Shown: one piece after another, positions 17,763 to 58,489 of the stretch
Numbering within the stretch: the stretch's first letter is position 1
How the letters are laid out: each line of letters opens with the position of its first letter
Assembly (NCBI RefSeq): GCF_000203975.2
Contig: NZ_AFCF02000011.1
Location: forward strand, 1 to 64,000
Source: Leisingera sp. ANG1
GTDB lineage: Bacteria > Pseudomonadota > Alphaproteobacteria > Rhodobacterales > Rhodobacteraceae
Reading direction: 5' to 3'
Length of the DNA: 64,000 nucleotides
Translations under genes and position numbers: made by a program
Notes under the pieces: model-generated
What the model was told of the DNA's origin: nothing
Databases searched by the model: none
What the model saw: only the letters and a program-made list of their open reading frames with translations

Positions 17763-18035
17763 ATGAAAACTTTTCTGACTGCAGCCGCCGCTGCACTTGC
17801 GGCGCACTGCCTGACCCTGACGGCTGCCTTTGCCATGGGCAACGGCAATGGATACGGCATTGGCAACGGCAATGGCGGCAACAATGGAAACGCCGGCGGC
17901 AATGGCTGGAACAACGGCGTTGGCAACCCGCACGGGGTGCCGGAAATCGATGCAAGCACCGGCCTGCTGGCACTGGCAGCCGTGAGCGCCGCCCTGGTCC
18001 TGGCCTGGGAAGTGAACCGCCGCCGCCGCGCCTGA
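17763..18035 (+). CDS. VPEID-CTERM sorted surface protein (Gly/Asn-rich)
   Basis: 90-residue exported protein. It has an N-terminal signal peptide (1-24, cut after AFA), a middle region of about 33 residues made almost only of Gly and Asn with single Tyr and Trp, and the tripartite C-terminus of exosortase substrates: VPEID at 59-63, a hydrophobic helix at about 66-82, and RRRR at 86-89. VPEID-CTERM is the signal read by exosortase E, whose gene is at 39032 in this window. The mature part after sorting would be only about 35 residues, so it could be a tiny anchor or glycosylated matrix peptide. The 132-base upstream gap has an AT-rich patch at about 17695-17730 that may hold the promoter. TTGAGGCCGAGCA precedes the ATG with only a weak Shine-Dalgarno. 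Confidence 0.88.
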   Translation: MKTFLTAAAAALAAHCLTLTAAFAMGNGNGYGIGNGNGGNNGNAGGNGWNNGVGNPHGVPEIDASTGLLALAAVSAALVLAWEVNRRRRA

Positions 18036-19110: not shown

Positions 19111-19137
19111 TCTGTTTGAATTTACGGGTGTTTGACG

Positions 19138-19842
19138 ATGCGGGATTTTGCACTGCAGCCCTATGCTCTCGAGGAGACCGGTCAGGAGCCGGGCCAGGAG
19201 AGCAGCCTGGAGACCGGCCCGGCGTTTGCGGGGTTTTATGCCCGCACCGGCAAGCGGGTTTTCGACATCGGCTTTGCCCTGCTGCTGCTGCCGGTCCTGG
19301 TTCCGGTCATCCTGGTCTTGTGGGGGGCCGTGCGCTGCGACGGCGGTGCGGGGTTTTTCGGCCATGTCCGGGTCGGCCGGGGCGGCAAGCCGTTCCGGTG
19401 CTGGAAGCTGCGCAGCATGGTGCCCGATGCCGAAGCCCGGCTGCAATCCTACCTGGACGCCGATCCCGCGGCGGCCGCGGAATGGGAGCGCAACCACAAG
19501 CTGGCCGATGATCCGCGCATCAGCCGGCTGGGCCGGATCCTGCGCAAGACCAGCCTGGATGAGCTGCCGCAGGTCTGGAACGTGCTGAAGGGCGAGATGA
19601 GCTTTGTCGGCCCGCGCCCCATCGTCACCGGGGAACTGGCCAAATACGGCAGCAGCGCCCCGGCCTATCTGGCCCAGAAGCCCGGCATCACCGGGTTGTG
19701 GCAGGTCTCCGGGCGCAACGGCATCAGCTATGACGAGCGGGTGGCGCTGGATGTGGCCTATCTCACCCGGCGCAGCTTCCTTAAGGATTTGAAAATCATC
19801 GCCAAAACCGGCCTGGCGGTGATCGGTACCACCGGCCGCTGA
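19138..19842 (+). CDS. exoY: ExoY-like undecaprenyl-phosphate sugar-1-phosphate transferase
   Basis: Initiating phosphoglycosyl transferase that loads the first sugar phosphate (galactose in the ExoY model) on undecaprenyl phosphate at the inner membrane. It has one hydrophobic re-entrant/TM segment around 42-63 after KRVFDIGFA, then the catalytic core: [38 protein letters not shown] and the [13 protein letters not shown] motif. At 234 residues it matches ExoY, with no N-terminal multi-TM domain. ATG at 19138 is taken. A TTG two codons earlier is possible and the Shine-Dalgarno is weak. It is followed after 94 bases and two GC-rich hairpins by exoP. Confidence 0.93.
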
Positions 19843-22810: not shown

Positions 22811-24940
22811 ATGAGACAACGGATACTCCAGGGACGGCATTTTCTGCTGGCGGCGCTGGTGCTGGCGGCCCCTGCCGCGCTGAGGGCCCAGACCACCTCG
22901 AATTACGGCACGCCGGGGCTGATCGAGACGCCCACCGCCGAAATGTATCCCGATGGCACCCTGGCCTTCACCAGCGGCATGCTGGACCAGACGCTGCGGG
23001 CCACGATGACCTTTCAGATGCTGCCCTGGGTGCACGGCAGCTTCCGCTACGGGGCGGTCGAGGGGTTCTTCCCGGACCGGCCGGATGGTGCGCAGACCCT
23101 GTATGACCGCAGTTTCGACATTCATTTCCTGCTGCGCGGGGAAAGCCGCAGGGGCCCGGCCCTGGCGCTGGGGCTGCGCGACTTCGGCGGCACCGGGGTT
23201 TATGCCTCGGAATATCTGGTGGCCACCAAGACCTTCCGGGAGCGGCTGAAGATTTCCGGCGGCATTGGCTGGGGCCGGATGGCCGGGCGCGGCAGTTTTT
23301 CCAACCCGCTGGGGGTGCTGTCGGACCGGTTCAAGACGCGCGAGACCTCCGGCGCGGGCGGCATTTCAACCACCGGCCAGCTGGATTTCGGCAATTGGTT
23401 CCGCGGCGATGCGGCGCTGTTCGGCGGCGCCAGCTGGCAGTACAATGACCGTCTGACCCTGCTGGCGGAATATTCGCCGGATCTTTATACCCGGGAGCAG
23501 GCCCGCAACGGCTTCGAGGTCAATTCGCCGTTCAACTTCGGCCTCCAGTACCGGTTCAAAAACGGCGCGCAGCTGACCGCCTCTTATCTCTACGGCAGCA
23601 CCCTGGGGGTCAATTACAGCTATTTCATCGACCCGCGCCAGAGCGTGGCGCCGGGCGGGCAGGGGGCGGCGCCGCCGCCCTTGCTGCCGCTGAACCAGGC
23701 GGCGCTGGCCAGCTGGAACCTGCCGTCCGCGCCCGCCGCCGCCGCCCGCCGCCAGCAGGTTCTGGCGCAACAGCTGCAGCAGGAAGGGCTGCGGCTGGTC
23801 TATCTGGAGGACGCGGGCGGAACCTTCCGCATCGGGGTGGAAAACGGCCGCTACGGCCAGGCCGCCCAGGCCATCGGCCGCACTGCCCGGGTGCTGGCCA
23901 ACACCCAGCCCGCAGGCGTGCAGGCCTTTGACATCGCGCTGATGGCAAACGGGGTGCCGCTCAGTTCGGTGCGGATTGCCCGCGATGACCTTTATGAGCT
24001 GGAGCATGACCCGGACGGCGCCTGGCGCAGCTTTGCCCGCGCCGAGGTGTCCGACAGCATCTCCCTGGTCAAGGGCGGCTTCACAAGGGATGCCTATCCG
24101 CATTTCAGCTACCGCTTCGGCCCCTATCTGCAGGCGTCTTTCTTCGACCCCGACGCGCCTTTCCGCTATGAGGTTGGCGCCCAGCTGGGGCTGGACTACA
24201 CGCTGTCGCCGGGGCTCAGCCTGTCGGCCGGGCTGCGCCAGCCTGCGGCCGGCAATCTGGACGACAGCCAGCGCCGGTCCAACTCGGTGATCCAGCGGGT
24301 GCGCTCGGACTGGGGGCTTTATGCGCAGCAGTCCGACCTGCGCATTGAGCATCTGACCGGTGAATACATCTGGCGGCCCGGCGAAAACCTCTATGCCCGC
24401 GCCACGCTGGGCTATCTGGAAACCATGTACGGCGGGCTGTCGGGGGAGCTTTTGTGGTTCCCGGCCAACAGCCGCCTGGCGCTGGGGGCTGAGCTGAACT
24501 ATGTGCGCCAGCGCGATTTCGACGTGCTGTTCGGCTTTCAGGATTATTCCACCGTGACCGGCCATCTGTCGGCCTATTACGATCTGCCAGGGGAGTATCA
24601 CGCCCAGATCGATGCCGGCCGCTACCTGGCGGGCGATTACGGCGCCACCGTCACCCTGGACCGGGAATTTGCCAATGGCTTCAAGGTCGGCGCTTTCTTC
24701 ACCCTGACTTCGGTGGGGTTCAGCGACTTCGGCGAGGGCAGTTTCGACAAGGGGATCCGGCTGGAAATACCAATTTCCTGGCTGACCGGCCGCCCGTCGC
24801 GCGACCGGCTGGCGCAGGTGATCCGCCCGGTGCTGCGCGATGGCGGCGCCCGGCTCAACGTGCGCAACCGGCTCTATGGCGTCACCCGCGAGGCGCGGGC
24901 CCAGCAGCTGGTCAAGGGCTGGGGGAGGTTCCTGCGATGA
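22811..24940 (+). CDS. yjbH: YjbH-like outer-membrane EPS protein (copy A)
   Basis: 709-residue member of the YjbH (GfcD) family, predicted outer-membrane beta-barrel for EPS secretion. Signal peptide MRQRILQGRHFLLAALVLAA... is cut after about residue 26 (LRA|QTT). The family opening GTPGLIETPTAEMYPDG is followed by LRDFGGTGVYASEYLVATK and, near the C-terminus, GRYLAGDYGATVTLDREF and FGEGSFDKGIRLEIPISW. Aromatic alternating strands fill most of the chain. The ATG at 22811 fits the signal peptide. An ATG at 22775 would lengthen the N-region. It overlaps yjbF by four bases (ATGA). A paralogue lies at 42727-44940. Confidence 0.9.
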   Translation: MRQRILQGRHFLLAALVLAAPAALRAQTTSNYGTPGLIETPTAEMYPDGTLAFTSGMLDQTLRATMTFQMLPWVHGSFRYGAVEGFFPDRPDGAQTLYDRSFDIHFLLRGESRRGPALALGLRDFGGTGVYASEYLVATKTFRERLKISGGIGWGRMAGRGSFSNPLGVLSDRFKTRETSGAGGISTTGQLDFGNWFRGDAALFGGASWQYNDRLTLLAEYSPDLYTREQARNGFEVNSPFNFGLQYRFKNGAQLTASYLYGSTLGVNYSYFIDPRQSVAPGGQGAAPPPLLPLNQAALASWNLPSAPAAAARRQQVLAQQLQQEGLRLVYLEDAGGTFRIGVENGRYGQAAQAIGRTARVLANTQPAGVQAFDIALMANGVPLSSVRIARDDLYELEHDPDGAWRSFARAEVSDSISLVKGGFTRDAYPHFSYRFGPYLQASFFDPDAPFRYEVGAQLGLDYTLSPGLSLSAGLRQPAAGNLDDSQRRSNSVIQRVRSDWGLYAQQSDLRIEHLTGEYIWRPGENLYARATLGYLETMYGGLSGELLWFPANSRLALGAELNYVRQRDFDVLFGFQDYSTVTGHLSAYYDLPGEYHAQIDAGRYLAGDYGATVTLDREFANGFKVGAFFTLTSVGFSDFGEGSFDKGIRLEIPISWLTGRPSRDRLAQVIRPVLRDGGARLNVRNRLYGVTREARAQQLVKGWGRFLR

Positions 24941-25575
24941 AACACCTGTGGCCGGTGCTGTCCGCCTTGCTGCTGCTGATCTCCTGCGGCGAGGCCAAGG
25001 ACGATCTCGATCTGTTGCGCGGCGCGCTGCAGCCCGATGCGCCCCGGTTCCATCCGCGCGCCTCGGCGCTGGCCTCTGTCCGGCCGATCCCGCCGCGGCT
25101 GGAGGTGTCCTTCCCGAGCCGCGATCTGAGCGGTGTCATGCTCTTGGAGACCGAGCGTGCGGGGGTGCAGACCTGGCTCACCGCCGATGGCGCCACCATC
25201 ACGCTCAAGCAGGGGTTCCTGACCTCGGCCAAGGGCTTCGGCTCCGGCCTGGCGGCCTCGGATGTGCAGCACAGCGCGGATCTGGTGCTGGCGGCGCGGG
25301 AGGGCACCGTGGAGCGGTTCCACAGCTTCCTCAATGGCAACGACCAGATCGAGCTGCACGCCTACCGCTGCGCGGTCACGCATGCGGGCGCGGAGACCAT
25401 CTTCCTGCGCGGCGAGCCGGTGGCGGTGCAAAAGCTGGAGGAGCGCTGCCACGGGCTGGCGGACAGCTTCACAAATACCTATTGGGTCCGGCAGGGGGCG
25501 GTGTTGCAGTCCTCGCAGTGGACCGGCAGTTTCCTGGGCAACCTCTTCATGAAGACGGTGCCGGATGAAAATTGA
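24937..25575 (+). CDS. yjbF: YjbF/GfcB-like lipoprotein (copy A)
   Basis: 212-residue predicted lipoprotein: LLLLISC places the lipidated Cys at 17. The body, with LEVSFPSRDLSG, ITLKQGFLTSAKGFGSGLAAS and NTYWV near the end, matches the YjbF family, which acts with YjbH in EPS secretion. Translationally coupled to yjbH by ATGA. The next gene starts 25 bases after the stop. Copy B at 42038 shares the TxRGLGxGLxS and NDYWV positions. Confidence 0.88.
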   Translation: MKHLWPVLSALLLLISCGEAKDDLDLLRGALQPDAPRFHPRASALASVRPIPPRLEVSFPSRDLSGVMLLETERAGVQTWLTADGATITLKQGFLTSAKGFGSGLAASDVQHSADLVLAAREGTVERFHSFLNGNDQIELHAYRCAVTHAGAETIFLRGEPVAVQKLEERCHGLADSFTNTYWVRQGAVLQSSQWTGSFLGNLFMKTVPDEN

Positions 25576-25600
25576 ACGACAGTTGATTGGAGGACGCATC

Positions 25601-26980
25601 GTGCGCCGCATTTCCCTTGCCCTCAGCGCCCTGGCCCTGGCCGCACTGGCTTCCGGCTGCTCGACCATCTACCGCAGCCCCGCCGTGAAGGCCGGCGTGT
25701 CGGACGCCGGCAAGGTGCGGGTGGTGGCGGTGACGCCGGAAACCGTGCTGGTCGCCAACCGCGCCGCCTATCAGCCCAAGGCCCTGCCGGCCGTCTTCGG
25801 GGTTTCCGCAGGCTCGGGCGCGGGCGCCAGCCCGCGGGGGCCGGGCACCCTGCCGCAGGCGCCCTCCTCCCAGGACGGCAGCCGCCAGGGGCTGCGGCTG
25901 GACCCGCCGCCCAGCATCGACCCCGGCCCCTATACCATCGGCACCGGCGATGTGCTGGTGCTGTCGACGCCCTCGACCCAAGGCACGGTGGCGGAGCTGT
26001 CCGGCCTGCTGGCGGCGCAGAACAGCCGCAACGGCTACACGGTGCAGGATGACGGCGCGATCAACATTCCGGATGTGGGCCGGGTGCGGGTTGCGGGCCT
26101 CACCGTGGACGAGGCCGAGGCGCTGTTGTTCCAGCGGCTGGTGGAAAGCCAGATCGACCCGACCTTCAGCCTCGAGGTTTCCGAGTTCAACTCCCGCCGG
26201 GTGTCGGTCGGCGGCGCTGTCGGCCAGCCCGGCGTCTACCCGATCACCCTGACCCCGCTCACCCTGGGCGAGGCGCTGGCCGCCGCAGGCTCGGTCTCGG
26301 TGGCGGATATCGACACCAGCTCGGTCCGGATCTACCGCGATGGCACCATGTACCAGATCCCGCTCGAGGATCTCTATGCCCGCCCGGCGCTGCAGCGCCT
26401 GCCCCTCTTGGCGGATGACTCGGTGTTTGTGGACACCGACTACGATCTCAGCCGCGCCGAGCGTTATTTCACCCAGCAGATCGAGCTGCAGAGAGCCACG
26501 CTGGCAGGCCGCCGCGCCGCGATCGACGAGCTGACTGCGGCGCTGACCCTGCGCCGTGCCGATCTGGATGAGCGGCGCGACAACTTCTCCCAGGCGCTGG
26601 AGCTGGACGCGGTGGACCGGGATTACGTCTATCTCAGCGGCGAGGTCCGCACCCAGGGCCGCTACACGCTGCCGTTCGGGCGCAAGGCCATGCTGGCGGA
26701 TGCGCTGTTCGACACCGGCGGCGGCATCGCCAAGGAGACCGGCGACGCCAGCCAGGTCTATGTGCTGCGCGCGGCGCAGGACGTGCGCGAGTTCGGCGCG
26801 GTCACCGCCTGGCACCTGGACGTGCGCAACGCCGCGCATCTGCCGCTGGCGGCCCGGTTCGAGCTGCGCCCCGGCGACATCGTGTTTGTGGCGGAAAACC
26901 CGGTCACCCGCTGGGGCCGCACCATCGACCAGATCACGCCGTCGCTGATCACCACGCCGGTCAATGCGCTGAGCGACTGA
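25601..26980 (+). CDS. OPX polysaccharide export lipoprotein (Wza/KpsD type, copy A)
   Basis: 459-residue outer-membrane polysaccharide export protein. GTG at 25601 follows GGAGG by seven bases and gives signal peptide MRRISLALSALALAALASGC with lipidated Cys20. An in-frame ATG at 25565 would bury this. Residues about 115-205 form the polysaccharide-export domain (YTIGTGDVLVLSTPSTQGTV), followed by SLBB-type segments (VSVGGAVGQPGVYPI, YVYLSGEVRTQGRYTLPF). A predicted helix at about 290-335 rich in Arg/Glu lies between them. Last gene of the yjbH-yjbF-OPX run. It likely forms the outer-membrane exit for the ExoP-dependent polysaccharide. Confidence 0.92.
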   Translation: MRRISLALSALALAALASGCSTIYRSPAVKAGVSDAGKVRVVAVTPETVLVANRAAYQPKALPAVFGVSAGSGAGASPRGPGTLPQAPSSQDGSRQGLRLDPPPSIDPGPYTIGTGDVLVLSTPSTQGTVAELSGLLAAQNSRNGYTVQDDGAINIPDVGRVRVAGLTVDEAEALLFQRLVESQIDPTFSLEVSEFNSRRVSVGGAVGQPGVYPITLTPLTLGEALAAAGSVSVADIDTSSVRIYRDGTMYQIPLEDLYARPALQRLPLLADDSVFVDTDYDLSRAERYFTQQIELQRATLAGRRAAIDELTAALTLRRADLDERRDNFSQALELDAVDRDYVYLSGEVRTQGRYTLPFGRKAMLADALFDTGGGIAKETGDASQVYVLRAAQDVREFGAVTAWHLDVRNAAHLPLAARFELRPGDIVFVAENPVTRWGRTIDQITPSLITTPVNALSD

Positions 26981-27002: not shown

Positions 27003-27869
27003 CTATTCGCTGTAGCCGAAGGCCTGCAGCGACGGGCGCAGCCGCCGGGTCAGCCCGGCGGCCTCCTGTGCACTCAGCCCGTCCCGCCATTTGCCGGACC
27101 CGCCGCGCCGGAAGGTGTGCGACTTCGACGGGGCAATGGCGCTTTTCAGGGTCTCCAGCAGCGCCTCCGGACTGCCAGCCGCGGCGGAGCTGCGGGCGGC
27201 AAAGCCGGCGATGATGCGGGCCAGCTGCGCCTCCTGGCCGGCGCCTGCGAGGTCCTCGTAGCGGATCGCCAGGGTGCCGGGATCCTGCAGCCAGCCGGCA
27301 TAGGGCAGCAGGCGGGCATTGCACTCCGGATAGCGGCTGTCGAACCCGTCCAGGGCCAGCTGCAGCCGCTCCCGGCTGCCGGGCAGCCGGGCAAAATGCC
27401 GGTGCATCCGGTGCCAGCGGTTCATCTCGCCCAGGTAATGCGCCTCAGAGACCAGAACGTCGCGGGGGTCGCGGTAGATGAAGAGATGCAGGGCGTTGAT
27501 CCGCGCCAGCGCCGCGGCGGCTTCGGGGGAATAATGCAGATGGCTGCCCAGGGTTTCCGACGGCAGGATCCGGCTGATCCGCCGGGCCAGCGCTGCCGGG
27601 GAGCGCTGCCGCAGGGTCACCGACGGGCTGGTTGCGATGAAGCGGCCGAGATAGCGGGCCTCGGGCAGCGCCCGGGTCACCTGCAGCAGCAGATGGGTGC
27701 CGCTCTTGGGCAGGGAGTTGGCAAAAACCGGGGGATGCCCCTGATACTGGCTGTCGCTGATCCGGCGCCGCTCCAGCGCGGCCGCCGGTTCCCGCAGGAA
27801 GGCAATCCCCTTTCTCAGCAGGGAGGACCTGCGCACGGCGGGGAGGTCGGCGATCTGGTCAATGTTCAT
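27003..27869 (-). CDS. Sulfotransferase domain protein
   Basis: 288-residue protein matching cytosolic-type sulfotransferases. FANSLPKSGTHLLLQ near 49-63 is the 5'-phosphosulfate loop, HLFIYRDPRDVLVSEAHY near 127-144 is the 3'-phosphate site, and FRRGGSGKWRD near 253-263 matches the RKGxxGDWK nucleotide-binding signature. Fourth sulfotransferase of the window and the best conserved. It is the last gene of the minus-strand manC-to-wzy operon, 52 bases after the glycosyltransferase, so it probably sulfates the Wzx/Wzy-made repeat unit. Its 3' end faces the OPX gene with 22 bases between. Confidence 0.88.
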   Translation of the reverse strand: MNIDQIADLPAVRRSSLLRKGIAFLREPAAALERRRISDSQYQGHPPVFANSLPKSGTHLLLQVTRALPEARYLGRFIATSPSVTLRQRSPAALARRISRILPSETLGSHLHYSPEAAAALARINALHLFIYRDPRDVLVSEAHYLGEMNRWHRMHRHFARLPGSRERLQLALDGFDSRYPECNARLLPYAGWLQDPGTLAIRYEDLAGAGQEAQLARIIAGFAARSSAAAGSPEALLETLKSAIAPSKSHTFRRGGSGKWRDGLSAQEAAGLTRRLRPSLQAFGYSE

Positions 27870-31381: not shown

Positions 31382-32656
31382 TCAGCCGGCCTCCTTCTGC
31401 GAAGCGTTGCGGGATGCTGCCAGCCGCCAATACCAGAAAAGCATGGCGGTCATATAGGGGACAGACAGCCAGACGGAGGTGCCGAGGGCCCGGAACATGC
31501 TGCCGCCACCCCAGTGCCCCAGCAGAAAGCCGCCCAGGAAGACCGCGGTCTGACCGCAGGCCACCGCCAGCATCGCCTTCTGGCGGCCGGCCAGAAGATA
31601 GCAGGGCGCCACGGTGGCAAGCACCATCTGCAGGACGATATAGGGGGCAAAGACGGCCGCCATCAGGCCGGCCGGCTGCCATTGCGGCCCCAGCACCAGG
31701 ACAAAGAGATCCGGCCCGAAGAGGACCAGGACGGCGGCGGTCAGCGCGCCAATTCCCAGAAGCGGTGCCGCGGTTGCCTTCAGCGCGCCCCTGAAAGACC
31801 CGGCCTGGCGCTGTTCTTCTGCGGCGGTGCGGAAGAACACCTGGCTCAGCGCCCCCGAGACAAGCGTGGAGGGCATCATCACCACCCGGAACATCATGAA
31901 ATAGGCGCCGGCCTCGGCGGCGGAGTAGAGGGCGGTGATCAGGGCCGCCATGATCCAGCGGGACACCTGGTTCACAAACACATGCGGCAGGTTCCAGAGC
32001 GGCTGACTGGCATAGAACCGGGCCAGCCGGCCGGCATAGCGGCGGCCGCGCGCGCTGCGCCAGAGGACGGGGCCTTTGCCCCCGGCCCGCAGCACCGGCA
32101 GGATGGACAGCGCCGCGCCCAGGGTTTCGCCCGCAATCAGCGCCCCGGTGCCGCCCCAGAGCGCATAGGCCAGAGCCACCTGGAGGGCGAAGGCGGCGGC
32201 AGGTTTGACCACGCGGGCCGCGGACACCGCACCGAACCGGCCCAGCCGCACCGCCATGAAGCTGAGCGACGTCTGCACGGAGACAAAGAAGCCGGCCGCG
32301 GGCACCGCCATCCACGCCGCCCCCAGGGAGGCGCCGCTCCAGGCGTCGAGCTGGTGCCGGAACAGCCCGGACAGCAGCACCAGGGCAAGCGCCGCCGCCA
32401 GCGCCGTTGCCTGCGCCAGCTGCAGGGTGTGCCGGGCCCGGGCCTGGGACCGGCACAGCATGATGGCCTGCTCGTAGCGCCCGGCCAGGGAGGCGCCCAG
32501 CACCTGCATGCCGAAGAAGAACAGCGCAAAGGTGCCGAAATCCTCCGGCGAAAACAGCCGGGACAGGACCGGGTAGGACAGGATGCCGATCGCCTGGGAG
32601 GCCAGAACCCCGGATCCCATGACCGCACCGTTGCGCAAGAGGCCCCTGGGTTTCAT
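31382..32656 (-). CDS. wzx: Wzx-like lipid-linked oligosaccharide flippase
   Basis: 424-residue MATE/MOP-type membrane protein with about twelve hydrophobic segments. It begins LLRNGAVMGSGVLASQAIGILSYPVL and contains LSRLFSPEDFGTFALF, both typical for polysaccharide flippases. It should move undecaprenyl-PP-linked repeat units across the inner membrane for the Wzy-like polymerase. Start at ATG 32656, which overlaps the TGA of the preceding gene by one base (TGATG). A GTG three bases earlier is an alternative. Confidence 0.9.
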   Translation of the reverse strand: MKPRGLLRNGAVMGSGVLASQAIGILSYPVLSRLFSPEDFGTFALFFFGMQVLGASLAGRYEQAIMLCRSQARARHTLQLAQATALAAALALVLLSGLFRHQLDAWSGASLGAAWMAVPAAGFFVSVQTSLSFMAVRLGRFGAVSAARVVKPAAAFALQVALAYALWGGTGALIAGETLGAALSILPVLRAGGKGPVLWRSARGRRYAGRLARFYASQPLWNLPHVFVNQVSRWIMAALITALYSAAEAGAYFMMFRVVMMPSTLVSGALSQVFFRTAAEEQRQAGSFRGALKATAAPLLGIGALTAAVLVLFGPDLFVLVLGPQWQPAGLMAAVFAPYIVLQMVLATVAPCYLLAGRQKAMLAVACGQTAVFLGGFLLGHWGGGSMFRALGTSVWLSVPYMTAMLFWYWRLAASRNASQKEAG

Positions 32657-33729
32657 CACCGGACGGCACTGCTGCCGAAAAACGCATCAAGGGCTTTCCG
32701 GATCTCCGCGGCGTTTGCGGCAAAGGCCTGCGCGAGGGTGCCGCGCCATGTGCCGCGGTCCGCAACAAACCCGGCCAGGGCGCCGGCATTGGCATCCGCC
32801 GGGGCGCCGGCCTCCAGGATCAGGGGGGCGAGCCCGGCCTGTTCGAACACCCCGCGGATCTTCTGTTCGCCGCTGTTCAGCAGCGGCACCGGGATGGCCC
32901 CGCGGGAGGCGGCGATGAGCAGCCCGTGCAGCCGGTTGGAGACAATCACGGCGGCCTCGCCGTAAGCCTCCAGCGCGGCTTCCAGCCGCCCCTCGCAGTT
33001 GCCGGGGAGGGGCAGGATCCCGGCTCCGGTGAGCGCGGCCAGGCGGCGGTTGCAGGCCTCGTCCCGCGCCACCTGCCAGCCGAACACGGGGTCCAGGCCC
33101 ATCTCCCTGGCCTGCGCCACCAGGGGAGCCAGATGTTCTGCAAACGCCTCGGCCCCGGTGCCGGGGTCGCGGAACATGAACAGCGCCTTGCCGCCGCGCC
33201 CGGAGGGGGCGAAGTCCAGCAGGAAGGCCAGGTCGGGCACGATCCCGGCCCGGATGCCCGCGGCTTGCAGCGCCTGCAGGGAATAGCCGTCCCGCACCGT
33301 GATCTTGCCGGATCTGTCTGCGGCCCGCTGCAGCCACACCTGTTCGCTGCGGCCGGCCTGCAGCCGCGAGGCGCCGATCTGGGCAATCTCCAGGAAGGGC
33401 AGCCGCGACAGCAGGCCCATGGCCCGGTCCCGCTTCCGATTGGGCCTGGCGCGGGTGACGTCGCCGCAGGACAACAGCATCACGCTGCCCGGCGGCAGCA
33501 GGCTGCCGAGCAGGAGCCGGAGCAGGCCGCGCGCCCTGCCGCGCAGGAATTCCGCCTGCGGGGCGCCTGCCGGCAGCCAGGACGCAATGTTCGCCCGGTA
33601 CCAGTCCGGCGCCTTGCCGGTGAAGATGCGCAGCCGGGCCCGCCGGGCGGTTTCCCGGAGCAGCAGCGCGTTGATCACCTCGTCCCCGAGGTTTTCGAAT
33701 TGCGTATCAAGCGAGACATAGACTGGCAT
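32656..33729 (-). CDS. Polysaccharide pyruvyl transferase family protein
   Basis: 357-residue protein of the pyruvyltransferase (CsaB/ExoV-like) family, which adds ketal-linked pyruvate from phosphoenolpyruvate to sugars. Visible are YVSLDTQFENLGDEVINALL at the start, a central ITVRDGYSLQAL and VPDLAFLLD, and the C-terminal SNRLHGLLIAASRGAIPVPL, the family hallmark with the conserved Arg-Leu-His. ATG 33729 is preceded by AGGAAAG. Upstream in-frame sequence to 34308 is antisense to the neighbouring GT gene and is not coding. Pyruvate would give the EPS extra negative charge. Confidence 0.88.
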   Translation of the reverse strand: MPVYVSLDTQFENLGDEVINALLLRETARRARLRIFTGKAPDWYRANIASWLPAGAPQAEFLRGRARGLLRLLLGSLLPPGSVMLLSCGDVTRARPNRKRDRAMGLLSRLPFLEIAQIGASRLQAGRSEQVWLQRAADRSGKITVRDGYSLQALQAAGIRAGIVPDLAFLLDFAPSGRGGKALFMFRDPGTGAEAFAEHLAPLVAQAREMGLDPVFGWQVARDEACNRRLAALTGAGILPLPGNCEGRLEAALEAYGEAAVIVSNRLHGLLIAASRGAIPVPLLNSGEQKIRGVFEQAGLAPLILEAGAPADANAGALAGFVADRGTWRGTLAQAFAANAAEIRKALDAFFGSSAVR

Positions 33730-33817
33730 CGAAGAGACTTTCCTGAGCGGACGGCCCTGAAGGCCCTGGGTGCAAGCGCCCTGGGGCAGCGGGCCGGCCT
33801 TCTCTGACCGCTTCAGG

Positions 33818-35014
33818 TCATAGGCCATTGCGGGCTTCGCTGAACAGGGTTTCGAACTTGTCCGCAACGCGCTCCAGGTCGAAATGCGCCTCGGCATAGG
33901 CCCGGCCGGCCGCGCCGGCGGCCTGGCGGGCCGCCGGGTCATCGCGGAAGGCCTGCGCGGCAGCGGCAAACCCTTCGGTGTCTTCGGGCTCCACAACCTG
34001 TCCCGCACCGGTTTCCCGCAGGATCTGCGCCGCCAGGTTGTCGCCCGGCGCGGCCAGCACGATGGGGCGGCCGGCACAGAGATAGGACAGGATCTTGGAG
34101 GGCACCGAAAAGGTTCCCGCCTCCCGTTCGATGACCGCCAGCAGAATGTCCCCCGAGGCCAGGACCTGCGGGAACACCTCAAAAGGCTGCAGCGGCAGAA
34201 CCCGCATCCCCGGCAATGTGCCGTCTGCAGCCCGCGCCGCCAGCCCGTCCGCGCCGACGCCCGCCGACACCAGCACCACCTGGTCCCCAGCCGTGACAGC
34301 CCGTGCAAGCCCCGCCAGAAGCTCCGGGTTGTGCTTCATGGCCAGGGTGCCGGAATAGAGGAACCGGGTGCCCGGGCCCAGGCCGTTGGCCTGCGCCCAG
34401 GCGGTGTTCCTGTCCAGCACGCCGATCTCATCCAGCGCCCCCCAGTTGGGGATCACGGACACGCGCTCCCGGGGGATGCCCCAGGCATCGGTCTGCGCCC
34501 GGAAGCTTTCGGTGATGTGCAGGACACGGCTTGCGCGCCGCATCTGGCGGCGCTCAAGAAACCGGTAATAGCCGCCGATCAGGTGGCCCGGCCCCGGCAG
34601 TTTCCGGGCCAGGAGCCTGGAGGCTGCCACCGAGTAGAAGTCCTGGCACCAGTAGATGAAGGGCGTGCCGGTCTGCCTGCAGGCCCTCTGGATGCCCTCC
34701 TGCGCCTCGGTCGGCGTGTTCCCGGAAATCACCACATCCGGCTTCATGGCGCAAATGGCCTGCCCCAGCTCCTTCCCGTAGGCGATATCGCCGGCCCGGC
34801 GCCGGAGAAAATCCGTCTTCGAGTAGCGGAGATCCTGCCCTGCGGGCAGGAAGGCGAGCGTGTCCGCGTCGCCTTCGGTGCGGGCCATCCGGCCCTTGGG
34901 GCCGGTATCGCCCGCAAACCAGGCATGGGTGACCCTGTGGCCGCGCCGGGCCAGCGCGCGGGACAGCTCCGCCTGAAACGGGTGGCCCGCAAAATCATGA
35001 AGCAAGATGTGCAT
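33818..35014 (-). CDS. Glycosyltransferase family 4 (WbuB-like)
   Basis: 398-residue GT-B glycosyltransferase. The N-terminal domain reads HILLHDFAGHPFQAELSRAL, and IYWCQDFYSVAA near 118-129 recalls WbuB/WcaI-type enzymes. The donor domain has FLYSGTLAMKHNPELLAGL near 218-236 and EREAGTFSVPSKILSYLCAG near 300-319, which holds the nucleotide-sugar contact residues. 88 bases separate it from the pyruvyltransferase gene and ten bases from the epimerase gene upstream. Confidence 0.87.
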   Translation of the reverse strand: MHILLHDFAGHPFQAELSRALARRGHRVTHAWFAGDTGPKGRMARTEGDADTLAFLPAGQDLRYSKTDFLRRRAGDIAYGKELGQAICAMKPDVVISGNTPTEAQEGIQRACRQTGTPFIYWCQDFYSVAASRLLARKLPGPGHLIGGYYRFLERRQMRRASRVLHITESFRAQTDAWGIPRERVSVIPNWGALDEIGVLDRNTAWAQANGLGPGTRFLYSGTLAMKHNPELLAGLARAVTAGDQVVLVSAGVGADGLAARAADGTLPGMRVLPLQPFEVFPQVLASGDILLAVIEREAGTFSVPSKILSYLCAGRPIVLAAPGDNLAAQILRETGAGQVVEPEDTEGFAAAAQAFRDDPAARQAAGAAGRAYAEAHFDLERVADKFETLFSEARNGL

Positions 35015-37230: not shown

Positions 37231-38691
37231 TCAGCCCCGCGCGTAGACATCTTCGTAGCGGATGATGTCATCCTCGCCGACATAGGCGCCGGTCTGCACC
37301 TCGATCAGCACCATCGGCACCTTGCCGGGGTTCTCCATCCGGTGCACCGCGCCCAGCGGCACATAGACGCTCTCGTTCTCGGTCACCAGCTTTTCGACCC
37401 CGTCCACCGTCACCTTGGCGGTGCCCTCGACCACGATCCAATGCTCGGAGCGGTGCACATGGCTCTGCAGGCTCAGGGCCGCGCCCGGGTGCACCAGGAT
37501 CCGCTTGACCTGGAACCGGTCGCCCACTGCCAGGCTCTCGAACCAGCCCCAGGGGCGGTGGTCCTTGGGGAACTGGGTGGCCTGGGGGGCGGCCTTCTTC
37601 TTCAGCGCCGCCACCGCCAGCTTGACGTCCTGGGCGCGGGATTTGTCGGCGACCAGAACCGCATCGTTCATCGCCACCGCCATAATGCCGTCCAGGCCGA
37701 TGCCGACCACCTCCAGCCGCTCGCTGTCGGCGCGCAAGAGCGTGTCCCGGCAATCAATTGCGGTGGCGCCGCTGCTGGTGACGACGCCGTCTGCATCCGG
37801 GGTGCTCTCGCGCCAGACCGCATCCCAGCCGCCCAGGTCGGACCAGGCCGCATCAAAGGGCACCACCGAGAGGTTCGCGGCCTTTTCCATCACCGCATAG
37901 TCGATCGAGATATCCTCGGCAGCGCTCCAGGGCTCAGGCGCCAGGCGCAGGAATCCGAGATCGGGCTTGGCCTGATCCAGCGCCGCCTGCACCGGCGCGA
38001 TCAGGGCCGGCGCATGGGCCTTGAAGGCGGCGATGATATCGGCGGCGCGGAACAGGAAGATGCCCGCGTTCCACTTGAAATTGCCCGCCGCCAGCATCTC
38101 GGCGGCCCGGGCCGCATCGGGTTTTTCCACGAACTGCTTGAGCGGCACCGCACCGCCCTCCGCGCCCCCCCCGGTCTTTGGCGCAGCGGCCAGCTCGAGA
38201 TAGCCATAGGCGGTTTCGGCATGGGCGGGGGTGATGCCGAAGGTGACCAGCTGGCCCGCTGCCACTGCCTCAAGGCCGCGGGCAACGGCGGCGTGGAAGG
38301 CCGCGGTATCCGGAACCACATGGTCCGAAGGCGCCACCAAGAGCACCGCATCGGGATTGTCCGCCCGGGCGCGCAGGGCCGCGGCCAGCACCGCAGGCGC
38401 GGTGTTGCGCCCCTCCGGCTCGATCAGGATGGCGCCGGGGTCGATGCCTGCGCCCTGCAGCTGCTCGGTGACGATGAAGCGGAAATCGGAGTTGGTCAGC
38501 ACCATCGGCGCGGCAAAGCGCAAGCCCTCTGCCTGCCCCGGACCCGGCCGGGCGGACAGCCGCCGGGCCGAGGCCTGGAACAGCGTCTCTTCACCCATCA
38601 AAGGCACGAACTGCTTGGGGTAGCTCTTGCGCGACAAGGGCCACAGACGGGTTCCGGAGCCTCCGCACAGGAGGACGGGTGTAATCAACAT
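37231..38691 (-). CDS. manC: Mannose-1-P guanylyltransferase / mannose-6-P isomerase
   Basis: 486-residue type II bifunctional enzyme of GDP-mannose synthesis. The pyrophosphorylase signature [20 protein letters not shown] starts at residue 7. [10 protein letters not shown] lies mid-chain. A C-terminal cupin domain ([20 protein letters not shown] from about 397) carries the isomerase histidines. First gene of a minus-strand operon that continues through ugd and the epimerase. Two TTTAATC direct repeats precede the ATG and no Shine-Dalgarno is obvious, which hints at a leaderless or regulated start. Confidence 0.94.
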
Positions 38692-39031: not shown

Positions 39032-40630
39032 ATGCAGGCGGTTTACTCAAGGCCATTCCTCCCCCGGCTGGCGGTCTTTGCGGCCGTCCTGCTGGCCGAA
39101 GTGCTGGCCATCCGCCTTGCCTTTCAGTTCAGGGAGACGTTTTCCTGTGCCGCCACCACGCTGCCCGGCCTGTGCGCCTGGATGAAAACCCTGCCGCTGC
39201 GCACGGTCTTTTCGGGCCTGGCCCTGGCGGCTGCGGTTGCGCTGAAGCCGTCTCTCTGGGGCGCGCGCGGGGCCCGGCCGGCCGCCGCTGCCGGGCTGCG
39301 CCCGAAGCCCGCGCTGCTGCATCTGGGGGGGCTGGTGCTGCTTTTTGCACCGCTCTGGCAGCTGTCCTTTGCGGATCTGGAGGCCCGGTTTGCCCTGCTG
39401 GCGCCGGTGTTTCTGCTGGGCGCCTTCTGCGCCGCCGCGGGGGCGCTGCTGTGGCTGATGCCGCTGCGGGCCTGGCGGCAGGGGCTGTCCGGCAGCGGGC
39501 TGGTGCTGCCGCTCACCCTGGCGGCCTTCTTTGCGCTGCCGGATATCGTGGACGCCTCCGGGGCCGTCTGGGGCGACAATCAGCTGCTGACCCGGCTCAC
39601 CTTTGCCGCCGTGGACCAAGTCCTGTCGCTGTTTCACACCACAGTCACCAGCCTGCCCGAAGAGCGCATCTTTGCGCTCAACGGCTTTGCGGTCCAGGTC
39701 GGCGATGCCTGCTCCGGGATCGAGGGGTTTGCCCTGATTGCCCTGTTCATGGGCGGCTATGCGCTGCTCTGCCGCGGCAGCCTGCGCCTGCGGCCCTACT
39801 GGCTGGTGCTGTTCCCGCTGGCGGTGCTGCTGAGCTGGGCCTTCAACGTCCTGCGGATCTCGGTGCTGATCTGGATCGGCGCCTATGTCTCGCCGGCGCT
39901 GGCGGTGGAGGGGTTCCATTCCTACGCGGGCTGGCTGGTGTTCTCGCTGCTGGCGCTGGCGATCCTGATTTCCGCCCACAACATGCCGCTGTTTCAAAAG
40001 CCGGCGGCGGACAGCGCCCCGTCTTTGGCCCCGTCCCTGGCGGCGGATCCGCTGTTTGCCCGGATCGTGCCCTTCATCCTGTTCATGATCAGCGGCACGC
40101 TGACACCGCTGTTCTGGGAGGTCCCGTCCGAGGGCTACCCGCTGCGGGCGGCGCTGATGCTGCTGGGGCTGGGGCTGTTCTGGCCCGCGCTCAAGACGTT
40201 CAGCTGGCGGGCCGGGCCGCTGGACTGGCTGGCGGGCGCCGCGGTGGCGGCGCTGTGGCTGTGGACCGCACCGGAAAGCGGCGGCAGCACCGCCGCGGCG
40301 CCGGATCCGGTCTGGATCATCTGCCGCCTGCTGGGCACGGTGCTCCTGGTGCCGGTGATCGAGGAGCTGTTCTTCCGCGCCTATGTGCTGGAGCGCATCG
40401 CCGGCGGCCCCGGCGCGCCCGCCTGGCGGGCCTGGGCCGGTCTAGCGGCCAGCAGCCTGCTGTTTGCGGCGCTGCATGGCCGCTGGCTGGCCGGGGGCGG
40501 GGCGGGGATCGTCTTCGGGCTGCTCTACCTGCGCAGCCGCCGCCCCGGCGGCGCGGTGCAGGCGCATATCCTGGCCAATGCCCTGATTGCCGCTGCCGCC
40601 CTCGCGGCGATGGATTTTGATCTGCTCTGA
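39032..40630 (+). CDS. xrtE: Exosortase E/CPBP protease fusion (VPEID-CTERM system)
   Basis: 532-residue polytopic membrane protein in two halves. The exosortase half has the transpeptidase-like triad in order: Cys227 in GDACSGIEG, Arg275 in FNVLRIS and His296 in GFHSYAG. The C-terminal half is a CPBP (CAAX-type) intramembrane protease with EELFFR at 444-449, LLFAALHGR (His482) and HILAN (His512, Asn516). This fusion is the known architecture of exosortase E. It should cleave VPEID-CTERM proteins at the membrane and pass them to a surface acceptor. Its only substrate seen here is at 17763. ATG 39032 follows AAGGA by five bases. A GTG lies one codon earlier. Confidence 0.92.
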   Translation: MQAVYSRPFLPRLAVFAAVLLAEVLAIRLAFQFRETFSCAATTLPGLCAWMKTLPLRTVFSGLALAAAVALKPSLWGARGARPAAAAGLRPKPALLHLGGLVLLFAPLWQLSFADLEARFALLAPVFLLGAFCAAAGALLWLMPLRAWRQGLSGSGLVLPLTLAAFFALPDIVDASGAVWGDNQLLTRLTFAAVDQVLSLFHTTVTSLPEERIFALNGFAVQVGDACSGIEGFALIALFMGGYALLCRGSLRLRPYWLVLFPLAVLLSWAFNVLRISVLIWIGAYVSPALAVEGFHSYAGWLVFSLLALAILISAHNMPLFQKPAADSAPSLAPSLAADPLFARIVPFILFMISGTLTPLFWEVPSEGYPLRAALMLLGLGLFWPALKTFSWRAGPLDWLAGAAVAALWLWTAPESGGSTAAAPDPVWIICRLLGTVLLVPVIEELFFRAYVLERIAGGPGAPAWRAWAGLAASSLLFAALHGRWLAGGGAGIVFGLLYLRSRRPGGAVQAHILANALIAAAALAAMDFDLL

Positions 40631-40819: not shown

Positions 40820-41332
40820 ATGCTGGCACAGAACACCGCATCTTCCGCCGCCGCCCTAATTGGCCGCCGCCGCACCCTGTTTCATTCCGCCGCAAAAGCC
40901 GCCGCCGTGCTGGGCCTGGCGCTGATGGCGCTGCAGCCCTCTGCCGCCGCCGCCCAGCAGACCTATGTGGTTGGCAGCGACCGCGGCGGCTATCTGCATG
41001 ACCGGCTGATCGAGCTGAAGAATCTGCAGCAGAACGGCGTCCGGGTCGAGATCCGCGGCAAGGTCTGCTATTCCACCTGCACCATGTTCCTCGGCCTGCC
41101 GGGCGCCTGCGTCGATCCGGCCACCACTTTCGGCTTCCACGGCCCCTCGCGCGGCGGCCGCCGCCTGACGCAGGAGAAATTCGACTACTTCAGCCGGGTG
41201 ATGGCCGGGTATTATCCGGCGCCGCTGAAGAGCTGGTTCATGGCCGAAGGCCGCAACCGGATTTCCGGGGTCCACAAGATCAAAGGCAGTGAGATCATCC
41301 GCATGGGCGTGCCGGCCTGCCGCAACGCCTAA
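40820..41332 (+). CDS. Secreted ClpP/crotonase-fold-like protein
   Basis: 170 residues. The long N-terminus has RRRTLF followed by a hydrophobic stretch and PSAAAAQQ, which looks like a twin-arginine or long Sec signal peptide cut near residue 45. The mature part has KVCYSTCTMFLG (Ser85 between Cys83 and Cys87), ACVDP and FGFHGPS (His107), a pattern seen in exported ClpP-like predicted proteases of alphaproteobacteria, in which the Ser and His are proposed catalytic residues. Function unproven. Its position right after exosortase E, 189 bases away and on the same strand, suggests a possible link with surface-protein processing, but it has its own AT-rich upstream region. Confidence 0.7.
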   Translation: MLAQNTASSAAALIGRRRTLFHSAAKAAAVLGLALMALQPSAAAAQQTYVVGSDRGGYLHDRLIELKNLQQNGVRVEIRGKVCYSTCTMFLGLPGACVDPATTFGFHGPSRGGRRLTQEKFDYFSRVMAGYYPAPLKSWFMAEGRNRISGVHKIKGSEIIRMGVPACRNA

Positions 41333-41851: not shown

Positions 41852-41916
41852 TTTCAAACTCCTTTGGAGAACTGTGATAGGTGCGTTGAGGCGACCTTAT
41901 GGGAGGCGGATGGTTA

Positions 41917-42037: not shown

Positions 42038-42730
42038 TCACCGCTGCAGCTGGCGGATTCGGATATATCCAATTTCCGGGCCAGCCCATTGCCGCGATTG
42101 CCAGACCCGGATGCGCCCCGGGCGGGAATCAACCCAGTAGTCATTGACCACCGCCCCGCCGGCGCCTTCGCAGCGCTCCTGCAGGTGGCGGGCCGGATGG
42201 GTGATCTCGACAATTTCCACTGGTTCCGGGCCGAGGTCGTGCAGGCTGCAGGCCATGTTCAGCACCCGCTGGCTGTTGCCATCGGCGCGCACGGTATAGC
42301 GGCGCGCGCCGCCGCGCGCCGGGCCGCCCTTGCCGTCTGCGGCCGGCACCTGCGCCGACAGCAGCCCGCCGCCCAGGCCGCGGGTGGCAATCAGCATGCC
42401 CTGGCGCAGCGCAACGGAGGCATTGTCCCGGCTGCGCCAGACCTCGATTTCGCCGGCATGGCTGTCGCGGCGGCGCAGCCCCGGGGTCAGGTAGGCGGTG
42501 ACCGCGCGATTCTCGATGGTGAGCTCGATATGGGGCAGGGTCTCGTTGTCCAGGAGCGCCCGGGTCAGCTTGGGCAGCGGCGGCGGGCTGCGGCGGCGTT
42601 TGAACTGCTCTGCCACCGCCTGCACAACTTCCAGCTCGGCCTGGGTCTTTTCCGGCCCCTGGCTGCAGCCCGCCAGCAGCAGCGCAGCGGCCAGGGCGGC
42701 GGCGGCCATCCGGATCATGCTCATGCTCAT
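42038..42730 (-). CDS. yjbF: YjbF/GfcB-like lipoprotein (copy B)
   Basis: 230-residue predicted lipoprotein with LLLAGC (Cys22). The body contains LTIENRAVTAYLTPG, VALRQGMLIATRGLGGGLLS and NDYWVDSRPG, matching YjbF. The four bases ATGA overlap yjbH upstream, as in copy A, though the chain is only distantly similar. A Lys/Arg-rich linker (KRRRSPPPLPK) follows the lipid anchor. The Met at 42724 or 42718 could also serve as start. Confidence 0.86.
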   Translation of the reverse strand: MSMSMIRMAAAALAAALLLAGCSQGPEKTQAELEVVQAVAEQFKRRRSPPPLPKLTRALLDNETLPHIELTIENRAVTAYLTPGLRRRDSHAGEIEVWRSRDNASVALRQGMLIATRGLGGGLLSAQVPAADGKGGPARGGARRYTVRADGNSQRVLNMACSLHDLGPEPVEIVEITHPARHLQERCEGAGGAVVNDYWVDSRPGRIRVWQSRQWAGPEIGYIRIRQLQR

Positions 42731-44940
42731 TCCCAGAACCTCGCGCGCTGGTCTTCCAGGCTCTTGCGGTGGGCCTCGCGCACCGGACCGTAGAGCCGGT
42801 CCGGCACCGCCACCCGCTGGCCGCCGTCGCGCTGGGTCGGGCGGATGGTCAGGCCGAAGCCCGACCGCGACGGTTTGCCCAGCAGCCAGTCGACCGGAAT
42901 GCGGAAGCGGAAGCCCTTGTCAAAGGAGCCCTCGCCGAAATCCTCGGCGGAAACATTTGTCAGGGTAAAGAAGGCGCCGACCAGGAAGCCGTTGTCGAAC
43001 TCCCGGTTCAGGCTGAAGGTGCCGCCGTAGTCGCCGGCCAGGTAGCGGCCCGCATCCAGCTGCAGCAGATAGCCCTTGCCCAGCTCCGCATAGGCCGAGG
43101 CATGGCCGGTGAAGGTGCGGTAATCGCGGAACGAAAACCGCTGGTCGAAATCGCGCTGCACCACATAGTTGGCCTCCAGCCCGAAGCCGATGCGGCTGTT
43201 CACCGGTTTCCACAGCACCTCGCCCGAAATGCCGCCGTACATCGTCTCAAACAGGCCGGCGGTGGCGCGGGCATAAAGGTTGCGGCCCGGTTTCCACAGG
43301 CGGCTCACATAGAGGTTTTCCAGGGTGGTGCCGAACTGGGCGTATTCGCTCTGGTCGGTGCGCACATGCGGCAGCACCGAGTTGGAGGCGCGGCCGTTCT
43401 TCACATTGCCGGCCAGCCGCTGGCGGATGGTGCCGGCGATGCGCCAGCCGGGCGCGGGCGCATATGAGGCGGTGAAATCGAGGCCCGCATCAATCCGGAA
43501 CGGCTTTTCGGGATCGAAATAGGCGGGCTCGGTATAGGGGCTGATGGAGCTGGCAAACGCCGGGTACAGCTCGCTGGAGAACAGCGCATCCGCGGGCAGC
43601 GGCCCGGCGTCCTGCACCCCGGCGGCGGCGAACAGCGCGTCCGCGGCTTCCGGGTCGAACTCCAGCGCCTCCAGGTCGGAACGGCGGATCTCGATCACAG
43701 ACAGGCCGAGGCCGCGGCGCACCGGCACCAGCCGGAAGCTCTCCACCGAGGGCGGCAGGGTCTGGGCCAGGGCGCGGGCGGCGCGGCCCGCTGCCTGGCT
43801 CTGCGAGCGGTAGCGGATGTTGCGGTAGCGCAGCTCGGCGCTGGTGCCGGTGAGGGTGATCGCCTCCAGCACCAGCCCGTCCGCCTTCAGCGCCTCGGCG
43901 GCCCGGTCGCGGACGGTGCGGGACTTGGTTTCGCTGGCGGCCCAGTCCTGGCTCCAGTGCGCCTCTTCGGTGGCCCATTGGCTGCGCGGGTTGACCGGGT
44001 GCGGCGCCGGCACCGCCATCAGGGTGGGCGGATGCTTCGGATTGAGCTGGATCTGCGCGGTCAGGCCGATCTCGGAGCCATAGAGGTAATAGGCGCCCAG
44101 GCGCACCCGGTCGGAATACTGGTATTCCACCCCGAAGTTGGCGGCCGATTTATGCTCGAACACATCCGATCTGCGGGTTTCGGTCACATAGGCGTCGGTG
44201 GAATATTCCGCCTTCAGGCTCCAGCGCTCATCCGGCTGCCATTCAAAGCCGGCAAAAGGCGCGACGGGGCCGCGGAACCACTGGTCCGTGGCCAGCTTGC
44301 CGCCGGTGCTGCCGCCGACAAAGCCGGGGCGGGTGCCGGTTGAGCCGATGCCGCCGTTGCTGCCGAGCCGCCCCCAGCCAAGCCCTGCCGAGATCTTCAG
44401 CCGGCCGGGACCGCGGCCCCAGCCCAGGGCGGCGGCCTGAAACCGCTTGGTGGCAACAAAATACTCTGCGGCATAGATGCCGGTGCCGGCAAAATCCTGC
44501 AGCCCCATGGTGACCTCGGGCAGCCAGCCGCGCTCGCGCCAGAGCCGGGCGCGCACATCGAAGCCGCGGTCGTAATAGGTGCTGAAGCCGAACAGGTTCA
44601 GGTCCTGGATGCCGTTGTAGCGGAACGAGGCGCTGAGCCAGGGCAGCGCCTGGAAGGTGATGTTGTAGCGCGACGTGCCCGCGAACCAGGAGTAGGTGAC
44701 CGCATACTGGCCGTCGGGCAGCATTTCGGCGCTTGGCATATCGATGAGGCCGGGGCTGCCGTAGAAGTTGAGACTGGGCGGCGGCAGCGGTTTCAGCCGC
44801 GGCGCCGCGGCTTCCGTGCCCGGGGCCGCCTGCGGATCGTCGCGGGTGATCTGCGGCACCTCTGCCTGTCCCGGAGCGGCAGCCAGGCACAGCAGCGCCA
44901 ACGCTCCGGTGCTGTGCAGAAGGGTCTTGATCGGGGTCAC
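42727..44940 (-). CDS. yjbH: YjbH-like outer-membrane EPS protein (copy B)
   Basis: 737-residue paralogue of the protein at 22811. Signal peptide to about residue 26 (GQA|EVPQ), then GSPGLIDMPSAEMLPDGQY, LQDFAGTGIYAAEYFVATK, and near the end GRYLAGDYGGTFSLNREF and FGEGSFDKGFRFRIPVDW. These are shared almost segment for segment with copy A. A periplasmic-looking charged insert at about 320-400 (HWSQDWAASETKSRTVRDR...) differs between copies. Its gene order, yjbH-yjbF-yjbE on one strand, also differs. Confidence 0.9.
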   Translation of the reverse strand: MTPIKTLLHSTGALALLCLAAAPGQAEVPQITRDDPQAAPGTEAAAPRLKPLPPPSLNFYGSPGLIDMPSAEMLPDGQYAVTYSWFAGTSRYNITFQALPWLSASFRYNGIQDLNLFGFSTYYDRGFDVRARLWRERGWLPEVTMGLQDFAGTGIYAAEYFVATKRFQAAALGWGRGPGRLKISAGLGWGRLGSNGGIGSTGTRPGFVGGSTGGKLATDQWFRGPVAPFAGFEWQPDERWSLKAEYSTDAYVTETRRSDVFEHKSAANFGVEYQYSDRVRLGAYYLYGSEIGLTAQIQLNPKHPPTLMAVPAPHPVNPRSQWATEEAHWSQDWAASETKSRTVRDRAAEALKADGLVLEAITLTGTSAELRYRNIRYRSQSQAAGRAARALAQTLPPSVESFRLVPVRRGLGLSVIEIRRSDLEALEFDPEAADALFAAAGVQDAGPLPADALFSSELYPAFASSISPYTEPAYFDPEKPFRIDAGLDFTASYAPAPGWRIAGTIRQRLAGNVKNGRASNSVLPHVRTDQSEYAQFGTTLENLYVSRLWKPGRNLYARATAGLFETMYGGISGEVLWKPVNSRIGFGLEANYVVQRDFDQRFSFRDYRTFTGHASAYAELGKGYLLQLDAGRYLAGDYGGTFSLNREFDNGFLVGAFFTLTNVSAEDFGEGSFDKGFRFRIPVDWLLGKPSRSGFGLTIRPTQRDGGQRVAVPDRLYGPVREAHRKSLEDQRARFWE

Positions 44941-52000: not shown

Positions 52001-52047
52001 GCTTCAGTCCTTTTCCGGAACAGAGGAAGGCGCCGGCCCGGCCGCGC

Positions 52048-53100: not shown

Positions 53101-53132
53101 GCCGCACCTCCGGTTGCGCGCAGTTTCATCTC

Positions 53133-58444: not shown

Positions 58445-58469
58445 TCGGCATTTTGTCCCCATTTGGGGG

Positions 58470-58489
58470 CATCCGCTGCGGCGCGGATG
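58470..58489. repeat. Hairpin upstream of RTX gene
   Basis: CATCCGC-6-GCGGATG in the 195-base gap after the coiled-coil gene. It could attenuate read-through into the RTX gene. Confidence 0.5.

Follow-up and report, generated by a model that had tools for sequence, protein, structure and literature searches.

The window, by which we mean the whole stretch of 64,000 nucleotides of Leisingera sp. ANG1 that was analyzed, carries on its forward strand the gene xrtE, exosortase E/protease (39032..40630, +). The frame encodes 532 aa when read from the ATG at 39032, or 533 aa from an alternative GTG start at 39029, and ends at 40630. An open reading frame in a different frame (38926-40620, 564 aa) overlaps it. 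In an NCBIfam search the xrtE product matched TIGR04162 with 602.8 bits (cut-off 150) across profile positions 4-515 of 516 and residues 19-532, and it also exceeded the cut-offs of TIGR04178 (59.6, cut-off 23) and of TIGR03008, pepcterm_CAAX (89, cut-off 81.05, residues 343-531); the remaining NCBIfam models with matches to the product all scored under their own cut-offs. The two halves were recovered separately in Pfam, Exosortase_EpsH (PF09721, 48.4 bits, cut-off 25.7) at 39209..39970 (+), which bears the Cys, Arg and His, and the Rce1-like CPBP domain (52.3 bits, cut-off 22.4) at 40310..40585 (+), in which the Pfam match together with an alignment placed the EExxxR, FxxxH and HxxxN motifs. 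The first-pass annotation had read the gene as an exosortase E fused to a protease in a single chain and proposed a search with exosortase E and CPBP models as the check; both kinds of model were passed and the fusion stands. The enzyme kind is already known and the NCBI name xrtE is already given, as the full-length TIGR04162 match, the plasmid annotations and a 2006 report of such fusions (discussed below) make clear: in each of 12 matching plasmid records the best place is annotated 'xrtE: exosortase E/protease, VPEID-CTERM system'. The gene was thus read correctly, as one more member of a known family, and its setting is notable. It is the sole exosortase-family match (E 0.001) in the whole 4.59-Mb genome, and a sequence search found no relative of XrtE with a solved structure.

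Conservation of the catalytic residues was assessed in an alignment of 70 XrtE sequences, which includes the window's own sequence, near-duplicates and one truncated sequence. The exosortase Cys, Arg and His (Cys 227, Arg 275 and His 296 in the window's enzyme, numbered from the ATG) were invariant in the 69 of 69 sequences having those columns, and the CPBP residues EE, R, H, H and N were present in all 70, so that the triad and the full CPBP motif set first read from this one chain hold across the aligned sequences. With both sets invariant, there is no sign that either half is a relic. When the predicted model of XrtE was read as 15 helices, Lys+Arg per loop ranged from 1.1 to 3.5 inside and from 0.1 to 2.4 outside, an imperfect pattern in which the first outside loop has a mean of 2.4; these counts would place the Cys and His loops of the exosortase half outside. 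The model has a pTM of 0.58, and the placing of the two halves relative to each other is uncertain.

A gene for a VPEID-CTERM cargo of 90 aa (17763..18035, +; TIGR04161, 65.1 bits) lies 21 kb upstream of xrtE. Its product comprises a predicted signal peptide, approximately 34 Gly/Asn-rich residues and the sorting tag (17937..18029, +; TIGR04161), with the cleavage site and the length of the ectodomain given by an in-house heuristic signal-peptide rule. This is the only TIGR04161 match over cut-off in the genome, the other match at E 10 scoring 13.9 bits and having a stop inside. The VPEID protein that had been expected thus exists, though at a distance from its enzyme.

Between and around these two genes lies a polysaccharide cluster. 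The cargo gene is adjoined by a calcineurin-like phosphoesterase (16854..17630, +; PF00149, 42.6 bits), which also neighbors the cargo gene in Leisingera sp. S132, and is followed by a sulfotransferase (18129..18944, +; PF13469, 91 bits), a bacterial sugar transferase (19132..19842, +; PF02397, 197.6 bits) that we take to be of the priming type, and a Wzc-like EPS tyrosine autokinase (19937..22081, +; Wzz and AAA_31), whose S132 homologue is so named. Further along are a first copy of YjbH whose true start is uncertain (22895..24940, +; PF06082, 698.5 bits), a Wza-like polysaccharide export protein (25565..26980, +; Poly_export and SLBB), a sulfotransferase (27003..27869, -; PF00685, 31.9 bits), a polysaccharide pyruvyl transferase, again of uncertain start (32656..34308, -; PF04230, 41.8 bits), and, as the gene upstream of xrtE, a ManC/AlgA-type GMP/PMI (37231..38691, -; TIGR01479, 557.3 bits). 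On the other side, xrtE is followed by a gene for a 170-aa protein (40820..41332, +) that holds this place in the Leisingera clade, with homologues at loci L004, L005, L007, L008, L009 and L106 but no match to either Pfam or NCBIfam models at E 0.001, and then by second copies of the YjbF/GfcB lipoprotein (42038..42730, -; PF11102, 83.8 bits) and of YjbH (42727..44940, -; PF06082, 692.2 bits). The EPS context is therefore solid in the window itself, with sulfotransferases, a pyruvyl transferase, a sugar transferase, an autokinase, YjbH twice and YjbF; the sulfotransferase domains, at 27003, 18129 and 11612, and the pyruvyl-transferase domain bear out the glycan setting from which the first-pass annotation had suggested a sulfated, pyruvylated polymer. 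In Leisingera sp. S132 xrtE comes first and is followed by the genes for the 170-aa protein, the phosphoesterase, VPEID, the sugar transferase and the EPS kinase, and then by a small gene, YjbH, YjbF and the export protein. The window's cluster is made up of the same kinds of gene, but there xrtE and the gene for the 170-aa protein stand at its far end.

Several other features of the region were recorded. The contig, of 64,845 bases, is rich in polysaccharide genes and by eye includes a likely rmlABCD set at 50280-53687. A small Thr-tailed secreted protein that presumably resembles GfcA/YjbE is encoded at 41624-41857 (-), ahead of the second YjbF/YjbH pair. Two large proteins with RTX calcium-binding repeats were seen, at 13742-16744 (Pfam) and 58463-61156 (by eye). 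Parts of the first 25 kb of the window match Leisingera and Phaeobacter plasmids, with a best coverage of 54%.

Enzyme and cargo were then compared across 296 genomes drawn from the family (numbered with the prefix G). XrtE exceeded its cut-off in 33 of these, and 32 had a VPEID match at E 0.001 (over cut-off in 24); the two occurred together in 30 genomes (Fisher p 2e-35, kinship ignored). The three XrtE genomes with no TIGR04161 match (G007, G016 and G128) have divergent tags (VPEVG, APEIN and VPEVS/T) within 1 kb of xrtE, and two of the 263 genomes without XrtE over cut-off (G043 and G121) had a VPEID match. At 57 of 63 non-redundant loci a tag gene and xrtE are no more than 2 kb apart, and at 52 no more than 500 bp; the window is one of the six loci where the distance exceeds 2 kb or no tag was found. 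The tags of L031 and L142 came from a looser pattern and those of L019 and L109 score only about 23 bits, and the near-duplicates L006, L010, L014, L025, L028 and L134 and the truncated L034 were left out before counting. In L. daeponensis (L008) and Leisingera sp. SS27 (L007), too, the 170-aa gene, ManC and the second type of YjbF/YjbH lie no more than 10 kb from xrtE; no cargo was found at these two xrtE loci, and both genomes have one elsewhere. Two different xrtE genes were seen per genome in the MAG HF-Dia18 (L004 and L009) and in Roseivivax halodurans (L019 and L023). A MAG contig labelled Thiotrichaceae (L031) carries xrtE with a VPEIG tag gene, by transfer or mis-binning.

The reading that we favor, and to which we give about an even chance, is that XrtE is a polytopic enzyme with two active sites devoted to one very small substrate, in which the exosortase half cuts the tag and passes the peptide to an acceptor that is likelier to be an amine lipid than EPS, and in which the CPBP half is an obligate second protease. 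The tag helix of the VPEID precursor would be embedded in the inner membrane, with the basic tail inside, and what signal peptidase would leave outside is the segment of about 34 Gly/Asn-rich residues. From the periplasmic face, the exosortase Cys would cut at the VPEID motif and hold the peptide as a thioester, to be resolved by an amine acceptor, phosphatidylethanolamine or another amine lipid being likelier than EPS. As obligate partner, the CPBP half might cut the left-over tag helix, or might cut first and so make the tag accessible to the exosortase. The modified peptide would serve, in the Leisingera clade, the matrix that the YjbH/YjbF/Wza-type EPS cluster produces, and in other lineages the same module of enzyme and peptide would serve other surface machinery. 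We infer which acceptor is used, where the tag is cut and which cut comes first. The preference for an amine lipid follows from the archaeosortase analogy and from the EPS linkage not being general for XrtE. According to the accessible text of the archaeosortase report, loss of HvPssA or HvPssD, the enzymes proposed for archaetidylethanolamine synthesis, blocks cleavage of the substrate, and loss of HvPssA blocks its lipid attachment (PMC7157517). A lipid acceptor for XrtE would be an analogy drawn across domains of life.

A reverse division of labor, in which the CPBP half does the cutting and the exosortase half just transfers or modifies the peptide, or acts on another substrate, is a serious rival because myxosortase, a CPBP enzyme, shows that such an enzyme can serve tag cleavage, although we consider it rather unlikely. 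The accessible part of the myxosortase work describes the enzyme as needed for cleavage of the C-terminal tag (PMC11980579), and describes the tag as cleaved in E. coli on co-expression. In XrtE the invariance of the CPBP residues in all 70 sequences, together with the match of this half to a model named pepcterm_CAAX, is what such a division would lead one to expect, but the exosortase triad is equally invariant (69/69), and in the predicted model its Cys and His would be on the side of the membrane at which the VPEID motif is expected.

Another possibility is that the acceptor of the VPEID peptide is the sulfated, pyruvylated EPS, or the lipid-linked precursor of that EPS, and that XrtE thereby builds the peptide into the matrix. 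An EPS-layer fate was proposed by Haft et al. in 2006 for PEP-CTERM proteins, in the portion of that paper available (PMC1569441). Within Leisingera the genes agree with it, since the window's cargo gene lies beside a sulfotransferase and the sugar transferase, and the S132 cluster runs from xrtE through VPEID to the sugar transferase, EPS kinase, YjbH, YjbF and export protein. We examined how far this holds using 32 EPS proteins of the window (one of which, at 53820, is mis-framed) to query the flanks of the other loci, with the Leisingera clade defined as the starred branch of seven rows on a quick tree. At least three kinds of EPS gene lay within 10 kb of xrtE in six of 62 other loci, and five of these six belong to the Leisingera clade, which has six loci besides the window; the clade's remaining locus, L004, is on a 7-kb contig and has two kinds. 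Outside the clade, 46 of 56 xrtE loci had no EPS query match within the available flanks, and the 10 with at least one kind (10/56) compare with 1 of 20 control regions (p 0.27), the controls being hand-placed in 20 genomes and flank lengths differing among loci. Queries taken from the window favor its close relatives and may overlook distant EPS genes: near xrtE at L107 and L110 there are RefSeq-named EPS genes of which the queries caught just one each. By annotation, settings outside the Leisingera clade vary: EPS genes stand beside xrtE in Limimaricola and Rhodovulum, and in Paracoccus ferrooxidans no EPS gene is annotated around xrtE. Over the 296 genomes XrtE and YjbH were unassociated, YjbH occurring in 23 of the 33 XrtE genomes versus 155 of the 263 others (Fisher p 0.26).

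An EPS association as a rule for the whole XrtE family is rejected by these genome and flank counts. EPS genes flank xrtE consistently solely in the Leisingera clade, as far as queries derived from the window can tell, and the sugar-polymer setting looks like a trait of one group of relatives. The earlier suggestion of an EPS-linked surface protein loses its force for XrtE at large, and a lipid link, the other option named with it, is still a candidate. EPS may be the acceptor within Leisingera, where it is retained as a candidate because the cargo gene is close to the sugar transferase and the EPS tyrosine kinase; this strong linkage in the window's own clade favors an EPS role there and counts against the lipid model. 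As the acceptor for XrtE we nonetheless hold EPS to be improbable, and the comparison warns that an acceptor should not be read from EPS neighbors.

The favored reading takes the substrate to be very small, and cargo lengths were compared. Of 60 cargos with a predicted signal peptide, 54 have 6-40 residues between signal peptide and tag, so that the word 'protein' hardly fits so short a cargo. The signal-peptide rule is clearly wrong for L119 (values 1 and 5), and for six cargos it predicted no signal peptide. L018, L020, L025, L028 and L119 (one) have VPEID/VPEMD cargos of about 50-65 aa in which no signal peptide was recognized, by the rule or by eye, and in these a short N-terminal tail would have to cross the membrane unaided. 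At 19 loci with an adjacent thioester-domain partner, described below, the median ectodomain was 11 residues (6-18, n=19 cargos), and outside those loci it was 28.5 residues (n=38 cargos), a group that includes four cargos with no adjacent xrtE (L143-L146) and leaves out three values of 120 or more, all from L140. Such lengths, and the name CPBP itself (CAAX protease and bacteriocin processing), would suit an XrtE that matures and releases a short unanchored peptide as a signal or matrix component, which we nevertheless regard as very doubtful, since the five VPEV[ST]-tagged frames of G128 (L140, 11690-17790), 203-539 codons long and no farther than 6.5 kb from the single xrtE there, look like ordinary surface sorting, and since no receptor gene was conspicuous among the inspected entries of a noisy and partial list of recurring neighbors. 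In the G128 genome TIGR04161 had no match at E 0.001, and two of the five frames had no NCBIfam match; as an exception, these large tagged frames make ordinary surface sorting possible for XrtE. The neighbor clustering is noisy because stop-to-stop frames were used: some large clusters were by eye apparently shifted or antisense frames, and part of the list was inspected, with ten proteins taken through Pfam.

In a sister clade a different neighbor recurs. At 19 of the 63 loci xrtE and a mini-cargo, mostly tagged VPEIS, stand beside a large protein with a C-terminal thioester domain, as judged by motifs and fold; examples in Rhodobacterales are L030:5918-9481, L108:11104-14019 and L129:11206-16401, with 16 more loci. 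Sequence model, conserved Cys and Gln motifs and fold all matched a thioester domain, and its internal Cys-Gln thioester is predicted. SdrD_B was found in 12 of the 13 partner proteins scanned, and most end in DC[LI]C or close to it. The association is partly circular, as the model was built from 19 domains at xrtE loci, many from the genomes searched. The independent model PF08341 gave a weaker picture, matching 12 of the 296 genomes at E 0.01 with six over cut-off, and was found in 6 of 33 XrtE genomes versus 6 of 263 others (p 7e-4). Five of these 12 matches were at xrtE loci (G030, G062, G065, G112 and G154), one was in G121, at a VPEIS locus that has no xrtE, and that of G285 was on a different contig than its xrtE. 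Inspected by eye, the starts of the thioester protein showed no obvious signal peptide. A common export system for it was considered and rejected, as type I secretion genes exceeded thresholds in just two of 20 partner loci.

The adhesin beside xrtE in this related group is predicted, from sequence and modeled fold, to stick covalently. It is interesting to speculate that in this one clade the mini-cargo is a covalent docking point instead of cargo: once XrtE had attached a peptide of 6-18 residues to the envelope, the neighboring SdrD_B adhesin would, through its C-terminal thioester domain, react with an amine there or use the peptide as a scaffold, so that a large adhesin would be displayed on a Gram-negative cell through two successive thioester chemistries, with the window's XrtE as an EPS-adapted branch of the module. 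We consider this a long shot. Should the thioester protein do what its fold suggests, its occurrence next to xrtE in a lineage of Gram-negative bacteria would connect exosortase sorting with covalent adhesion.

XrtE offers a clean and favorable test case for finding the acceptor used by bacterial exosortases. With one enzyme, one cargo having about 34 residues outside the membrane, and no other exosortase match in the genome, mass spectrometry of a single small peptide could reveal it.

Among the literature matches listed, no paper dealt with the XrtE enzyme or with the thioester partner, many subscription papers lying outside the search. For the partner, the known counterparts are the Gram-positive TED adhesins such as SfbI and Cpa. 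As far as its accessible text goes, a 2015 survey placed TEDs in Gram-positive bacteria only, almost always at the N-terminus, and gave formation of the internal thioester as a mass loss of 17 Da (PMC4450167). The partner's domain is C-terminal, in Rhodobacterales, and beside xrtE and a mini-cargo, and the partner itself is not in the window. Myxosortase MrtX and the MrtJ/JDVT-CTERM system resemble XrtE in being CPBP enzymes of C-terminal tag processing, MrtJ also pairing with one target, but are described in the available accounts without an exosortase domain; in the same accounts the MYXO tag has an invariant Cys, and the VPEID tags collected here are without that Cys. The EpsH-CAAX fusions of Haft et al. 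(2006), four proteins that were taken as Rosetta-stone evidence, are the same domain fusion as XrtE, with no dedicated cargo assigned in the accessible portion of that paper (PMC1569441). The XrtE/TIGR04161 system itself is matched by the window's genome in its full-length enzyme, both active sites and single VPEID-tagged cargo, and differs in that enzyme and cargo here stand 21 kb apart, whereas a tag gene is within 2 kb in 57 of 63 loci.
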